This document shows positions 28,595-32,967 of a stretch of DNA of 64,000 nucleotides, one piece after another. Below the pieces are notes generated by a model that was not told the origin of the DNA, did not search any database, and saw nothing but the letters and a program-made list of their open reading frames with translations. Source of the DNA: Aeromicrobium sp. Sec7.5 (GTDB lineage Bacteria > Actinomycetota > Actinomycetes > Propionibacteriales > Nocardioidaceae). Position 1 is the first letter of the stretch, and each line of letters starts with the position of its first letter. The translations under genes were made by a program, and so were the position numbers. The stretch covers positions 1,860,001 to 1,924,000 of the forward strand of contig NZ_JBAJIJ010000001.1 in the NCBI RefSeq assembly GCF_036867135.1. Reading direction: 5' to 3'.

Positions 28595-29674
28595 TCAGCC
28601 CACCGATACGCCCGCGGCCAGCAGCGAACCGATGGCCTCCCCCACCTCCTGCGTGGAACGCGCGGCCGTGCCGGCGCCCGAGCGGGCGGCGATGTCGGCC
28701 TCGACGGCGGCCGTGATCTCGGCGGCTGCAGCCGGGTGCCCGAGGTGCTCCAGGAGCAGCCCGGCGGACAGGATCGCGGCGGTCGGGTCGGCCTTGCTCT
28801 GACCGGCGATGTCCGGGGCCGAGCCGTGGACCGGCTCGAACATGCTCGGCGAGCTGCGGTCGGGGTTGACGTTGCCGCTGGCCGCGAGGCCGATGCCACC
28901 GGTGATGGCAGCCGCGAGGTCGGTCAGGATGTCGCCGAACAGGTTGTCGGTGACGATCACGTCGAAGCGTGACGGGTCGGTGGCCAGGAAGATCGTGGCG
29001 GCGTCGACGTGCAGGTAGTCGACCGTGACCTCCGGGAACTCCGTCGCGACGGCGTCGACCGTGCGGCTCCAGAGGTGGCCCGCGTGCACGAGCACGTTGT
29101 TCTTGTGCACGAGCGTGAGCTTGCGGCGGGGGCGGGCCTGGGCCCGCGCGAACGCGTCGCGCACGACCCGCTCCACGCCGAAGGCCGTGTTCAGGCTCAC
29201 CTCGGTGGCGACCTCCTGCGGGGTGCCCACGCGAATGGCGCCGCCGTTGCCGACGTACGGGCCCTCGGTGCCCTCCCGGACGACCACGAAGTCGATGTCG
29301 CCCCGGTCGGTGACATGGCCGGCGAGCGGCGTCGGGACGCCCGGGAACAGCTTCGAGGGGCGCAGGTTGACGTAGTGGTCGAGCTCGAAGCGCAGCTTGA
29401 GCAGTAGGCCCCGCTCGAGCACGCCCGACGGCACGCTCGGGTCGCCGACCGCGCCCAGGAGGATGGCGTCCTGGCCACGGATCTCCTCCAGGACGCCGTC
29501 GGGCAGGGTCTCGCCCGTCGCGTGCCACCGCCGCGCCCCGAGGTCGTACTCGGTGCGGGCGAAGGCGAGGCCGTGCCCGGAGGCCACCTGGTCGAGGACC
29601 TGGAGGGCCTGGCCGGTGACCTCCGGGCCGATGCCGTCGCCGGGAACGATCGCGAGGTTGTAGGTCTGCGTCAT
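28595..29674 (-). CDS. leuB: 3-isopropylmalate dehydrogenase
   Basis: Oxidatively decarboxylates 3-isopropylmalate in leucine synthesis, using NAD. The 359-aa protein has [46 protein letters not shown], the lysine of LVHKNNVL, and [17 protein letters not shown] with [15 protein letters not shown] 29674 is preceded by TAGGAT (29681-29686) exactly 6 nt upstream, a strong leaderless -10. leuA, leuC and leuD are not in the window. Confidence 0.94.
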
Positions 29675-29700
29675 GAACTCATCCTAGGACGACCGGTCTC

Positions 29701-29720
29701 AGATGCTGAAACCGGCATCT
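29701..29720. terminator. Stem-loop between the 33-aa ORF and leuB
   Basis: AGATGC, an 8-nt loop and GCATCT form a perfect 6-bp stem. It lies downstream of the 33-aa ORF and just upstream of the leuB promoter. It has no T-run, so it is a weak terminator candidate or an mRNA-end stabiliser. Confidence 0.35.
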
Positions 29721-29745
29721 CGCCTTTTGGTCGACGGTCGGATCG

Positions 29746-29847
29746 TCAGTTGTCGTCGGGACGGTCGGCGTCGGCGAACGCGTCCAGCAGCTCGCTGGCG
29801 TCGTCGCGCAGGTGCGCAGGTCCCCACTCGATCACAGGATTGGACAT
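29746..29847 (-). CDS. 33-aa acidic small protein with sequestered ribosome site
   Basis: ATG 29847 opens a 33-residue frame starting MSNPVIEWGPAHLRDD and ending in an Asp-rich tail. A strong Shine-Dalgarno, AGAAGGAG, sits at a good distance. The peptide is predicted helical, acidic and soluble. I recognise no family. The Shine-Dalgarno lies in an 11-nt segment (29854-29864) that is the exact complement of 29930-29940, so its translation is probably controlled by RNA folding. A predicted leaderless leader peptide lies 173 nt upstream on the same strand. Codon use (GC at third positions) is like that of genes. Confidence 0.55.
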   Translation of the reverse strand: MSNPVIEWGPAHLRDDASELLDAFADADRPDDN

Positions 29848-29853
29848 GATGAT

Positions 29854-29940
29854 GCTCCTTCTCGGTTCTGATGGTCAGCGGTCTGACAGACAGCTGGTCC
29901 GCGGAACCACTTCGTCGGGGTGACCGACGCGAGAAGGAGC
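29854..29940 (-). promoter_or_regulatory. Candidate translational switch sequestering a Shine-Dalgarno
   Basis: GCTCCTTCTCG and CGAGAAGGAGC (29930-29940 and 29854-29864, read on the minus strand) form a perfect 11-bp helix hiding the ribosome site of the 33-aa ORF. The 65-nt loop contains smaller stems (CGTCGG-TCACC-CCGACG at 29913-29929) and GTGGTTCCGCG (29900-29910), which differs from the T-box core at one position. No protein or RNA family is assigned. Confidence 0.5.
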
Positions 29941-29998
29941 AGATCAGGGTGGTGATCGATGCGATCCTGCAGCGGCTCAGCGGTCCAACGCTGGAACT

Positions 29999-30038
29999 CC
30001 GCGGCAGGAGGTCGGACCTTTAGGAGACCCTGCCGCGG
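29999..30038 (-). ncRNA. Leader-peptide hairpin, 10-bp perfect stem
   Basis: CCGCGGCAGG (minus strand, 30038-30029) pairs with CCTGCCGCGG (30008-29999) around a 20-nt loop. The first arm coincides with the Cys-Arg-Gly-Arg codons of the leader peptide, so ribosome position would decide whether it folds. There is no T-run, so it is a regulatory fold rather than a plain terminator. The remaining sequence of the 29848-30169 gap shows nothing else beyond the neighbouring switch and promoters. Confidence 0.55.
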
Positions 30039-30067
30039 CAAGCGATGGATACGAGCTGCTTCCGCAT
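30020..30067 (-). CDS. 15-aa leader peptide MRKQLVSIACRGRVS
   Basis: ATG 30067 follows TACAGT (30075-30080) after 7 nt, the leaderless layout used by many genes here. It encodes MRKQLVSIACRGRVS before TAA. Its last codons form one arm of the hairpin at 29999-30038. A single Cys and two Arg codons near the end could be the sensing residues. It resembles leader peptides of attenuated operons in design. The signal is not known. Confidence 0.5.
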   Translation of the reverse strand: MRKQLVSIACRGRVS

Positions 30068-30169
30068 GGGCAGGACTGTACCCCACCGCCCCAACACCTG
30101 CCGACCGATCGGCAACGACTGCGGTCCCGGCGTGTCGGCACGCCGCTTGACGCGTGACAGACTGACGCG

Positions 30170-30733
30170 GTGTCCTCTCCATTCGACGTCCCGGCGCTGG
30201 TCGGACGCACCCTCGACCTCGCCCGCCAGCGCGGGTTCATCACGTCGACGCGCCACGAGACCGGCCGCCTGCTCGCGACCCTGGCCGCCGCACGGTCCGG
30301 CACGCTCGCCGAGCTCGGCACCGGCACCGGCGTCGGCTCCGCGTGGCTGTCGAGCGGCGCCGCCGAGGGCACCCGCATCGTGAGCGCGGAGCTCGACCCG
30401 TCGCTGGCCGAGGACGTGCAGAAGATCTTCAGCGACGTCGCGAACGTCGACATCGTGTCGGGCGACTGGACCACGCTCGAGGAGTACGCGCCGTTCTCGT
30501 TGATCTTCGTCGACGTCCGTGAGGTCATGGCGGAGATCGACCACCTCGCGGCGCTCCTCGAGCCGGGGGGCATCGCGGTGCTCGACGACTTCACCGCCTC
30601 AGCGCACTGGCCGCCCATCGTCGACGGCCAGGTCGACACCGTCCGCGAGCAGTGGCTGACCGACGAGCGGTTCGTCGCCGTGGAGCTCCTGATCGACGCC
30701 GACGCCAGCCTGGTCATCGCCACGCGGCGCTGA
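30170..30733 (+). CDS. SAM-dependent O-methyltransferase-like protein
   Basis: A 187-aa class I methyltransferase with motif I AELGTGTGVGSAWL (SAM binding, residues 47-60), the acidic end of strand 2 in RIVSAELDPSLAED, SGDW, FVDVRE and LLEPGGIAVLDDF. It resembles the COG4122-type O-methyltransferases, but the substrate is unknown. The start is GTG 30170 with CAGACT (30158-30163) 6 nt upstream (leaderless). The last 135 nt overlap the convergent YczE-family gene. Confidence 0.82.
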   Translation: MSSPFDVPALVGRTLDLARQRGFITSTRHETGRLLATLAAARSGTLAELGTGTGVGSAWLSSGAAEGTRIVSAELDPSLAEDVQKIFSDVANVDIVSGDWTTLEEYAPFSLIFVDVREVMAEIDHLAALLEPGGIAVLDDFTASAHWPPIVDGQVDTVREQWLTDERFVAVELLIDADASLVIATRR

Positions 30734-31348
30734 CGCACCGCGGGACCCGTCGAGCAGCACCAGGAACACCTGCACGAGCGGACCGATCAGCACGGCGTAG
30801 AGAACGGTGCCGACGCCGACCGTGCCGCCGAGCGCGAAGCCGACCGCCAGCACCGTGATCTCGAGCGAGGTCCGCACGACGCGGATGCTCAGCCCGGTCC
30901 TGCGGACGATCCCGCTCCACAGACCGTCGCGCGGTCCCGTGCCGAAGTCCGCACCGATGTACAGGGCGCCGGCGAGGGCGTTGCCCACGATGCCGATCGT
31001 CAGGAACGACACCTGGACGCCGAGGTGGTCGGGCGTCGGCAGCCACGCCAGCGTGACGTCGGCCGCGATGCCGATCAGGATCACGTTGAGCAGGGTGCCG
31101 ATGCCCGGACGCTGGCGCAGCGGGATCCATGCCAGCATCACCACGGCCCCCGTCAGGATCACGACCTGGCCGAATGTGAGCGGCACGATGCCGGCGACGC
31201 CCTCGTGGAACACGTCCCACGGGTCGAGCCCCAGACCGGCCTCGACCAGGAAGCCCATCGTGGCGCCGTAGAGCCACAGGCCCACCAGGAGCCGGACGAA
31301 CCGGCCGGCCGGGCTCGTGGGGATCAGGCGCGCCACGGCGCGACCCAC
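30599..31348 (-). CDS. YczE/YitT-type membrane protein
   Basis: A 249-aa integral membrane protein with about 5-6 hydrophobic helices. The text FVRLLVGLWLYGATMGFLVEAGLGLDPWDVFHEGVA and GADFGTGPRDGLWSGIVRRTG marks the YczE family. The last about 55 residues are hydrophilic and encoded wholly opposite the 3' end of the methyltransferase gene. That suggests an ancestral stop was lost and the frame extended antisense. The GTG 31348 lies within the end of a 46-aa ORF (overlap 25 nt), so translation may be coupled; GTG 31336 is an alternative. It is divergent from a MocR regulator, the usual partner of YczE genes. Confidence 0.78.
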   Translation of the reverse strand: MGRAVARLIPTSPAGRFVRLLVGLWLYGATMGFLVEAGLGLDPWDVFHEGVAGIVPLTFGQVVILTGAVVMLAWIPLRQRPGIGTLLNVILIGIAADVTLAWLPTPDHLGVQVSFLTIGIVGNALAGALYIGADFGTGPRDGLWSGIVRRTGLSIRVVRTSLEITVLAVGFALGGTVGVGTVLYAVLIGPLVQVFLVLLDGSRGASAPRGDDQAGVGVDQELHGDEPLVGQPLLADGVDLAVDDGRPVR

Positions 31349-31464
31349 TCGTGGTCGTGGCTGCGCGGCGGCGGGACGTCGCCCCGACCGTCGGTGCGGA
31401 CGAGGACGGCGGTGCGCCAGGTCGTCCAGGACACGAGTGCGAGAAGTGCGACGATCAGCAACAT
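31324..31464 (-). CDS. 46-aa small membrane protein
   Basis: ATG 31464, preceded directly by GGAGGC, encodes 46 residues. A hydrophobic N-terminal helix (MLLIVALLALVSWTTW) is followed by a basic segment and DGRGDVPPPRSHDHEWVAPW. Similar short proteins with a TM start and a DGxG-PPPRSH tail are, as I recall, common in actinobacteria, without known function. The end overlaps the YczE gene by 25 nt in another frame, and both would share the promoter divergent from the MocR gene. Confidence 0.6.
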   Translation of the reverse strand: MLLIVALLALVSWTTWRTAVLVRTDGRGDVPPPRSHDHEWVAPWRA

Positions 31465-31482
31465 GCCTCCATCGTCGCGCAG

Positions 31483-31510
31483 ATTGGCCTTGCGCTAAAT
31501 ATCCAATTGG
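31483..31510. promoter_or_regulatory. Candidate MocR operator between mocR and yczE
   Basis: ATTGG occurs at 31483-31487 and 31506-31510, with the overlapping inverse CCAAT at 31503-31507, so CCAATTGG is a palindrome. MocR-family YczR proteins are known to bind repeated sites in such divergent regions. A TAAATA -10-like sequence (31496-31501) lies between the repeats. The assignment is inferred from position and symmetry only. Confidence 0.4.
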
Positions 31511-31524
31511 GGGAAGGTGGCTTC

Positions 31525-32967
31525 ATGGCAGTGGTCATCTCCGCACGGCGTCTCGCGACCGTCATCGGCGAGCTCGATGACGATGGTCCGGCGTACCTCG
31601 AGATCAGCGACCGCATCCGGGTCGCGGCGATGGACGGGCGACTGGCCGACGGCACCCGCCTCCCGAGCGAGCGTGAGCTGGCCTCCGCCCTGCGGGTGAG
31701 TCGCACCACGACCACGCGGGTCTACGCCGAGCTCCGCGAGGCCGGGCTGGTCGAGTCGCGTCGTGGCTCCGGCAGCACGATCGCGCTGCCCATGCAGGCC
31801 TCCTCCGCCAGCACGCTGATCGGCATGCACGACGACACCGACACGTTGGCCTTCACCTACTCGGCGCCGGTCGGGCCGCCCGGCATGGCGCGGGCCTTCG
31901 AGCGCGCATGCGAGAAGCTGCCCGGCCTGCTGGCCACGAGCGGCTACCTGCCCGACGGGCTCCCGGTCCTGCGCGAGCTGGTGGCGCAGTACTACGCCGA
32001 CCGCGGGCTCCCGACCGATCCTGCACAGATCATCGTCACGAACGGGGCCATGGGCGCGATCTCGCTGCTCGCGCGCACCCTGCTCTCCCCCGGCGACCGG
32101 GTCCTCGTCGAGGGCAGCAGCTATCCCCACGCGCACGACGCCTTCGTGGCCGCCGGTGGTCGCCTCTCCCCCCTGCCCGTCGGCGGCTCCCCGTGGGACA
32201 GCGAGGCCATGTCGACCACGCTGGCGGCCGGCCGGCACCGACTGGCCTACGTGATCCCCGACTTCCACAACCCCACCGCGGCCGTCATGTCCGGTGAGGA
32301 GCGGGAGCGCTGGGCGCGCGAGCTGCGACGCCACGGGGTGACGGCGATCGTCGACGAGTCGATGCGCGAGGTCAACCTCGACGGCATCGACCTGCCGCCC
32401 AGCCTCGCCGAGCTCGACCCGTCGGCCGTGGTCCTCGGTTCGTCGTCGAAACCCTTCTGGGGCGGGCTGCGGGTCGGGTGGATGCGCGTGCCACGGTCGA
32501 TGGTGATGGGCCTGGTGCAGGCCCGCATGATCGACGACCTGAGCTCGTCGGCCTTCGACCAGATGGTCTTCGCCGAGCTCCTGACCGACGGTGGCCAGAC
32601 GGCAGCGGCCGGGCGAGCGGCCCTGCGTACCGGGCGCGACCACCTGCTCGCCGAGCTGGCCACGCACGTCCCGGAGATCACCGCGCCGTGCCCGGCCGGT
32701 GGCCTGAACCTGTGGGTGACGTTGCCCGGCCGCCTGTCGACGCGGCTGTGCGCGGCCGCCGAGCGTCGCCGGCTGCTGCTCACGCCCGGACCGCGGTTCT
32801 TCTCGCACGGCGGCACCGCGGGCGAGCGACACCTGCGGCTGCCCTACGCCCACTCCCCCGACCGGCTCACCGAGGGCGTGGCGCGGCTGCGCCTGGCCCT
32901 CGACGACGTCCTGGAGGGCCGGGCCGCCGGCTCCTCGCGGGCCACCCCCATCGACCTGATCGCGTAG
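31525..32967 (+). CDS. MocR-family regulator (GntR DNA-binding + aminotransferase-like)
   Basis: A 480-aa PLP-dependent transcription factor. The N-terminal winged helix (about 20-90) has YLEISDRIRVAAMDGRLADGTRLPSERELA and VSRTTTTRVYAELREAG. The C-terminal fold-type I aminotransferase-like domain has TNGAMGAISLLARTLLSPGD, PDFHNPTAAVM and the PLP lysine in GSSSKPFWGGLRVGW. Divergent pairing with a YczE membrane protein gene is the known YczR-YczE arrangement, so it probably controls that gene. ATG 31525 has GGGAAGG about 8 nt upstream. Confidence 0.87.
   Translation: MAVVISARRLATVIGELDDDGPAYLEISDRIRVAAMDGRLADGTRLPSERELASALRVSRTTTTRVYAELREAGLVESRRGSGSTIALPMQASSASTLIGMHDDTDTLAFTYSAPVGPPGMARAFERACEKLPGLLATSGYLPDGLPVLRELVAQYYADRGLPTDPAQIIVTNGAMGAISLLARTLLSPGDRVLVEGSSYPHAHDAFVAAGGRLSPLPVGGSPWDSEAMSTTLAAGRHRLAYVIPDFHNPTAAVMSGEERERWARELRRHGVTAIVDESMREVNLDGIDLPPSLAELDPSAVVLGSSSKPFWGGLRVGWMRVPRSMVMGLVQARMIDDLSSSAFDQMVFAELLTDGGQTAAAGRAALRTGRDHLLAELATHVPEITAPCPAGGLNLWVTLPGRLSTRLCAAAERRRLLLTPGPRFFSHGGTAGERHLRLPYAHSPDRLTEGVARLRLALDDVLEGRAAGSSRATPIDLIA

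Follow-up and report, generated by a model that had tools for sequence, protein, structure and literature searches.

Upstream of leuB in Aeromicrobium sp. Sec7.5, a short reading frame (uORF1) that shares its codons with a hairpin precedes a second, 33-codon frame (ORF2), which raises the question of what this leader senses and which of the genes behind it is its target. The locus lies on the minus strand of the window, i.e., the stretch of 64,000 nucleotides of DNA analysed here. A preliminary description, made from the sequence alone, had named a TACAGT box, a 15-aa uORF, a 10-bp hairpin, a complementarity between an anti-SD (SD, Shine-Dalgarno) and the SD, and the 33-aa ORF2, all of which are found where it had placed them. 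Absent from it are the branched-chain codons before the hairpin, a pseudoknot formed by the hairpin loop, an alternative partner strand (P1') and a putative separate promoter of leuB. The locus contains the following features:

30075-30080, minus strand: putative -10 box TACAGT, 7 nt before the uORF1 ATG
30020-30067, minus strand: uORF1 with its stop codon (ATG at 30067, stop TAA at 30022-30020), encoding the 15-aa leader peptide MRKQLVSIACRGRVS; its codons CTC GTA TCC ATC (Leu-Val-x-Ile) stand directly before the hairpin arm
30029-30038, minus strand: 5' arm of hairpin P1, CCGCGGCAGG, within the Cys-Arg-Gly-Arg codons of uORF1
30011-30018, minus strand: pseudoknot strand 1, GGTCCGAC, in the P1 loop
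29999-30008, minus strand: 3' arm of P1, CCTGCCGCGG, forming a perfect 10 bp with the 5' arm
29982-29989, minus strand: pseudoknot strand 2, GTTGGACC
29965-29975, minus strand: second copy of the P1 5' arm, CCGCTGCAGGA, able to pair with the P1 3' arm instead (P1')
29942-29957, minus strand: P3 hairpin, GATCA..TGATC (GACCA..TGGTC in relatives)
29930-29941, minus strand: anti-SD, TGCTCCTTCTCG, about 60 nt downstream of P1
29853-29864, minus strand: SD-bearing segment of ORF2, CGAGAAGGAGCA, complementary to the anti-SD
29746-29847, minus strand: ORF2, encoding the 33-aa acidic protein MSNPVIEWGPAHLRDDASELLDAFADADRPDDN
29696-29712, minus strand: imperfect palindrome GTTTCAGCATCTGAGAC (GTTTCA-N5-TGAGAC) at the leuB promoter, a putative operator
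29681-29686, minus strand: putative leuB -10 box TAGGAT, 6 nt before the leuB ATG
28595-29674, minus strand: leuB, 3-isopropylmalate dehydrogenase (NF002898), the downstream neighbour

The comparison covers the genus of the window, in which leuB is present in 47 of 49 genomes and loci were studied from 46 of these 47 (the remaining one is split over contigs), and 24 fetched loci from the rest of the family, which named relatives (Nocardioides, Marmoricola and Mumia) place as the Nocardioidaceae. The leaders recognised number 128, of which 111 are distinct and 110 have an ORF2 start; these 110 comprise 31 leaders from the genus, being the distinct ones among its 46 loci, and 79 others. After filtering for 93% identity and loop length 95 leaders are left, and 66 of these make up alignment A3, long-loop and similar rows having been excluded by hand.

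Conserved elements of the leader

uORF1 is present in all 46 leuB loci of the genus, in two of them as a variant (L059 has no ATG or GTG start, and L072 has Ser for Cys), and in 22 of the 24 loci from other members of the family. Among the 59 named loci fetched with the ORF2 profile it was found by pattern in 44, by patterns that initially missed Micromonosporaceae-type, Ser and unusual-start variants. The codons ahead of the hairpin arm are mostly Leu-Val-x-Ile in the genus, with GTA at the second of these positions in 29 of the 31 leaders. This rare valine codon occurs in 110 of the 111 distinct leaders, standing four codons ahead of the Cys/Arg codon in 84 of these, and accounts for 1 of the 238 valine codons across six neighbouring reading frames. 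The Cys-Arg-Gly codons of uORF1 are frozen, whereas the synonymous sites of ORF2 are free to change. Some relatives have Arg, Ser or Gly at the position of the Cys, yet their RNA arm is unchanged; these codons therefore look as if they are kept for the arm, and sensing of Cys, Arg or Gly is rejected on the same ground. The residues sensed by uORF1 are probably Leu, Val and Ile; the leader peptide counts as rich in its regulated amino acid on the condition that the leader regulates the branched-chain pathway. In addition, 106 of the 111 distinct leaders, compared to 2 of 550 control windows, have a TAnnnT box no more than 20 nt before uORF1, which suggests a near-leaderless transcript with its 5' end on or beside the start codon.

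The 328-nt RNA folds at z = -3.5, and none of 100 shuffled sequences folds equally well. P1 is paired in 98.1% of the cells, a conservation that is partly due to row selection because the leader patterns required parts of the peptide and of the arms. Changes on both sides of P1 are seen in 53 cells, whereas shuffles average 12.5 and none of 500 is as high; four pairs are changed on both sides, a pair count that by itself is less special, being reached by 29 of the 500 shuffles. The arm search patterns do not extend to the covarying pairs in columns 43-46 of A3, and pairing drops to 65% or less when the partner strand is slid. The small leader frame, with its conserved and covarying hairpin in front of a conserved small ORF, supports the preliminary description in this respect. 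That description had also called for an Rfam scan, which returns no known family for the window at the gathering score; with permissive settings, three hits at chance level are obtained in 29680-30110. Terminator-like sites are likewise not found in 29500-30400, so that the ORF2 leader has none of the intrinsic terminators with U tract that characterize a classical attenuator.

The P1 loop pairs with a downstream strand to form the predicted pseudoknot. In the 79 leaders from outside the genus own loops score 20.3 and foreign loops 15.5, with 20 of 79 at a rank of 0.05 or below. The corresponding values for the 31 genus leaders are 16.6 and 15.2, with 4 of 31 at this rank; the signal in the genus is small because its sequences are alike. 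One pair of the pseudoknot differs between the window, with GGTCC/GGACC, and the near relative L006, with GGGCC/GGCCC (T-A versus G-C). The alternative helix P1' is equalled by at most 5% of shuffles in 19 of the 31 leaders of the genus and in 35 of the 79 others, where the signal is weak (own 20.8, foreign 20.4), and it forms in the stalled-state fold of the window's leader, i.e., with the 5' arm blocked. The P3 hairpin varies as GATCA/TGATC and GACCA/TGGTC.

Kinship with the LEU element of leuA

The LEU element, described upstream of leuA in Actinobacteria, combines a conserved pseudoknot with a uORF of Leu codons (Seliverstov et al. 2005, PMC1262725). Like this element, the ORF2 leader has a short uORF with branched-chain codons, a hairpin arm inside this uORF, a loop pseudoknot and no terminator. 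Unlike the LEU element, it precedes a small-protein gene and leuB and not leuA, its codons are those for Leu, Val and Ile, with GTA in 110 of 111 leaders in place of a Leu run, and it has a P1' copy and, in the genus, a separate anti-SD. Built from 66 leaders of the ORF2/leuB type, the covariance model R1 has exactly two matches at E≤1 in the genome of the window, namely the ORF2 leader (2.0e-19) and the leuA leader (2.9e-9), the latter with the peptide MRIANLLLRCRVEV and a hairpin of the same kind. R1 also matches the leuA leader in 12 of the 12 genomes with leuA located. As a single covariance model finds both the ORF2 leader and the LEU element of leuA, the former is taken as a second, retuned leader of the LEU type.

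Pairing of the uORF1 codon run with the SD of ORF2, as in the base stem of the LEU element, was looked for and is found in 0 of the 31 leaders of the genus and in 5 of the 79 others (at most 5% of shuffles as good), by a test that is weak in that a like test is positive in only 2 of 12 leuA leaders. With neither a Leu run nor this pairing, the ORF2 leader is a derived relative of the LEU element and not a plain member. The preliminary description goes too far in claiming that no such system has been described, in that the leader half of the locus is related to the LEU element of leuA; the ORF2 family, for its part, is without a match in Pfam, NCBIfam, PHROGs or the literature searched. A LEU-type leader would have been duplicated and re-tuned from leucine to valine, isoleucine and leucine, and the presence of two related elements in one genome makes the unsolved mechanism of the LEU element testable by comparison.

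The leader of M. tuberculosis ilvB1 also has a branched-chain uORF, for which its authors propose stalling at LVVI codons that include a regulatory GUA codon and report leader reporters (PMC13236596). Ribosome-mediated attenuators of the ilvB type, as described for the Corynebacterium ilvB-II motif (PMC10272879) and for ilvB1 (PMC13236596), share the branched-chain uORF and carry an intrinsic terminator, whereas the ORF2 leader has none. The LeuL1 leader of Streptomyces lividans, MRFGLLLLSCRGEGL, is reported in PMC8079986; its peptide layout is that of uORF1 in the family, e.g., MRKFVVILSCRGEAT, but LeuL1 controls leuA and has a Leu-specific run. The window's ilvB gene is preceded on the minus strand, at 36644-36552, by the uORF VHALLLVSV with two GTA codons and by a hairpin (36586-36552) followed by seven T, and judging from these motifs ilvB seems to have a classical attenuator of its own. 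A second LEU-like match is also seen in a genome from another family of the class, at G110:C1:2025580-2025681 (E 1.3e-5), the other match in that genome being at 863400 (E 1.1e-7).

ORF2 and the putative promoter of leuB

ORF2 is found in 46 of the 46 leuB loci of the genus and in 22 of the 24 loci of other Nocardioidaceae. Its pN/pS is 0.35 over 28 close pairs within the genus, with synonymous sites free to vary, and each residue of the motif EWGPAHLR is present in all 31 distinct frames of the genus; L072, which is outside this set, has HHR. Outside the genus ORF2 reads MYDMYPEWGP...AVQxALDLRDNGGERPDDN. The RRDNGG core that ORF2 has elsewhere was lost in the genus of the window, and the members listed from outside the Nocardioidaceae are without RPDDN. 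A chance ORF or a chance hairpin is ruled out by conservation, covariation and pN/pS. As judged by its pattern of substitutions and its distribution, ORF2 is a protein gene under protein-level selection and a member of a small-protein family that is usually located upstream of leuB.

At E≤0.01 the ORF2 profile has matches in 91 of the 296 genomes from the class; a few of these matches, those with the weakest scores, are probably due to chance. Of 40 ORF2 loci fetched (the 30 best-scoring and 10 hand-picked ones) 38 hold leuB, and leuB is held by 50 of the 59 named loci fetched by the profile, starting at most ∼100 nt from the ORF2 stop in 47. Within the family, ORF2 is absent by profile from 9 of the 9 genomes without leuB, several of which are incomplete, and present in 9 of the 11 genomes that bear leuB. 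The two exceptions are G461 and G491; in G461 leuB is present with neither ORF2 nor its leader. In genome G443 (locus L234, G443:C4:169100-171000) only fragments of leuB are left between ORF2, whose frame is open, and an ilvE frame that looks intact; the leader is retained, and this locus is a natural test of ORF2 without LeuB. The ORF2 matches also include Streptomyces-like loci, and uORF1 is missing in the three that were read. In the Streptomyces-like loci L107, L108 and L115 a highly conserved stretch, AGATAGTAGGAAGTCCGAGTAAYTGTRGAGACAG, lies in place of uORF1, some 270-300 nt before the ORF2 core.

None of the ORF2 members scanned matches a Pfam, NCBIfam or PHROGs family. The PDB gives one match, with E 0.36, to a chain named ZnO48_baseKO_ES_Complex, and no convincing relative. 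The AF2 model of ORF2 is a single helix of low confidence (pLDDT 67, pTM 0.26). The literature searched, with subscription journals and preprints outside its scope, contains no recognised description of ORF2 or of such a leuB leader. The locus thus adds a widely conserved small protein beside leuB, found in none of the databases and literature searched, for which the leader predicts when it is made.

In the genus, the gap between ORF2 and leuB is 56-80 nt, and a TAnnnT box stands 6-7 nt before the leuB ATG in 28 of the 28 distinct loci with a locatable leuB start. In 42 loci from outside the genus the leuB frame starts at most 13 nt from the ORF2 stop, some of these frames beginning at GTG with uncertain starts. 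The stop codon is TAG or TAA in all 42 and, together with the next 3 nt, reads TAnnnT in 41 of them, 6-8 nt before leuB; the sole short-gap locus without this box is L094, of the Streptosporangiaceae type, and its close leuB start is probably spurious. None of the 42 loci has an SD-like motif before leuB. ORF2 ends in TGA in 29 of 31 cases in the genus, whose promoter box lies further down. A scan for the box confined to the ORF2-leuB gap is positive in 21 of 64 non-genus loci, having missed the boxes that include the stop codon. The position of these boxes suggests a separate, near-leaderless promoter for leuB, with a -10 that includes the ORF2 stop codon in many Nocardioidaceae.

Near the leuB box, a GTTTC[AG]-N4-6-[TC]GAGA repeat is present in 30 of the 31 distinct loci of the genus. 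A stricter version of the palindrome pattern has one exact match in the genome, at the leuB promoter, and a regulon-wide operator is rejected on this basis. The palindrome is a candidate operator of an unnamed repressor.

In several Streptosporangiaceae loci ORF2 and leuB are not adjacent. In L188 and L193 the next frame after the leader and ORF2 is a long one on the opposite strand (frames chosen by codon-position G+C), and in 5 of 15 leader-bearing loci of the Streptosporangiaceae type leuB is not found in at least 1000 nt downstream. As leuB seems to have a promoter of its own, and as the leader and ORF2 occur in Streptosporangiaceae with no adjacent leuB, the target of the leader is probably ORF2. 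In Microtetraspora (L191 and L192) leuB starts ∼1.3 kb after ORF2, and in L191 a gene for a ROK-family protein lies between the two.

Proposed sensing by the leader and its probable target

We consider it reasonably probable that this second LEU-type leader, retuned to Leu, Val and Ile, senses the charging of branched-chain tRNAs, that its immediate target is ORF2 and that leuB is separately promoted. The codon run would have shifted from Leu-Leu-Leu to Leu/Val/Ile around a near-invariant, rare GUA valine codon, and it is this change that points to sensing of branched-chain tRNA charging, which, measured chiefly at GUA, most likely sets the output of ORF2. The transcript would begin at or next to the start codon of uORF1. 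A ribosome that reads through would cover and then free the 5' arm, such that P1 and the pseudoknot can form, and a ribosome held at GUA/AUC, presumably by stalling, would cover the 5' arm, such that the 3' arm pairs with the downstream copy to form P1'. In amino-acid shortage P1' would be expected to raise the output of ORF2, with either translation start or Rho-dependent termination as the presumed output step. ORF2 would be made as a product of its own and might act in trans on branched-chain or leucine metabolism, and leuB would be served by the ORF2 leader only via read-through.

Sequence-level support for this model is provided by conservation, P1 covariation, pseudoknot complementarity, selection on ORF2, the promoter-like boxes and the kinship with the leuA element. 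The output step is missing from the model, because there is neither a terminator-like site nor, at equilibrium, a coupling between uORF1 and the SD of ORF2. In addition, mutated leader codons of S. coelicolor leuA/ilvB deviated from classical attenuation (Craster 1999, as summarised in PMC1262725), and by analogy these codon changes would count against a sensing model of the classical-attenuation kind, as a warning.

A more far-reaching reading, to which we give slightly less than even odds, is that in ORF2 an actinomycete small-protein family has its first recognised member, made under shortage of branched-chain aminoacyl-tRNA by way of a duplicated, re-tuned LEU leader and acting in trans on leucine or branched-chain metabolism (e.g., on LeuB, IlvE or a leuB regulator), with a stop codon that doubles as part of the leuB -10 in many Nocardioidaceae.

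ORF2 may instead be a second leader peptide that works in cis and feeds or gates leuB by reinitiation or Rho protection, its nascent chain being conserved for an effect on the ribosome. Such a role, which we regard as unlikely but worth serious consideration, becomes conceivable because ORF2 adjoins leuB in most loci (at most ∼100 nt away in 47 of 59) and is absent from the 9 of 9 genomes in which leuB is missing. It would also fit the conservation of ORF2 up to its last codon (RPDDN) and the 42 loci with leuB at most 13 nt from the ORF2 stop and no SD-like motif, 10-11 nt being the distance that has been linked to reinitiation (Korolev et al., PMC4833913). However, the short gap is explained by the leuB TAnnnT box, which shares the ORF2 stop codon, and with the stop codon part of the box in 41 of 42 loci reinitiation is rejected as the sole reason for it. 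TAnnnT stands 6-8 nt before leuB in both arrangements, also in the window's genus with its gap of 56-80 nt. Moreover, some Streptosporangiaceae have the leader and ORF2 with an opposite-strand frame next, and RPDDN is absent in the members listed from outside the Nocardioidaceae.

It is improbable that the leader mainly targets leuB, or leuB and ilvE, by attenuating a long transcript, with ORF2 as an incidental or decaying frame. Genomic adjacency is in line with this arrangement, as is the loss of the RRDNGG core from ORF2 in the genus; moreover, ilvE comes after leuB and makes Val, Ile and Leu, a product range that fits the mixed codons. Attenuation of this kind is, however, at odds with the lack of a terminator-like site in 29500-30400, with the purifying selection on ORF2 and the invariance of its EWGPAHLR residues across the 31 distinct frames of the genus, with the promoter box of leuB itself and with the existence of stand-alone ORF2 units.

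The anti-SD bears on the mechanism put forward in the preliminary description. GCTCCTTCTCG (29940-29930) is complementary to CGAGAAGGAGC (29864-29854), which gives 12 bp when the flanking T/A is counted. In the genus this helix is species-matched (own 20.3, foreign 16.2; 11 of 31 at a rank of 0.05 or below) and is re-formed in the variants CTCCTCTGAA/TTCAGAGGAG and CTCCTCGGT/ACCGAGGAG, whereas in the 79 leaders from outside the genus it is not species-matched (15.8 versus 15.7; 4 of 79). Folds were forced at equilibrium with either P1 and the pseudoknot strands held or the 5' arm blocked ('stalled'), in a model with no pseudoknot energies and no co-transcriptional folding. The mean accessibility of the SD in the genus is 0.19 when free, 0.16 with P1 and the pseudoknot strands held and 0.18 for the blocked 5' arm. 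From one forced state to the other it stays within 0.1 in 29 of the 31 genus leaders and rises by more than 0.1 in the other 2, with none falling; outside the genus, where forcing failed for one of the 79 leaders, shifts above 0.1 are upward in 5 and downward in 8. In these models P1/P1' and the SD helix are separate, independent folding modules. The anti-SD:SD helix is thus real in the window's genus, but equilibrium folding does not support a control of it by uORF1.

That translation of uORF1 refolds the RNA and so exposes or hides the SD of ORF2 through the anti-SD helix is very improbable, because this helix, for all its species-matched and re-formed pairing of up to 12 bp in the genus, is genus-specific and, as a module separate from P1/P1', shows no coupling in equilibrium folding (a shift above 0.1 in only 2 of 31 genus leaders). 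A kinetic, co-transcriptional version of the switch survives.

The preliminary description had further suggested that the locus occupies the place of serA. This is contradicted by Streptosporangiaceae loci in which serA lies directly upstream of it (L186, L188, L189 and L193; TIGR01327), uORF1 not being recognised in L189. In the window, a divergent pair encoding a YczE membrane protein and a MocR-like YczR regulator, at 30602-32964, lies between ilvC and the uORF1-ORF2 locus.
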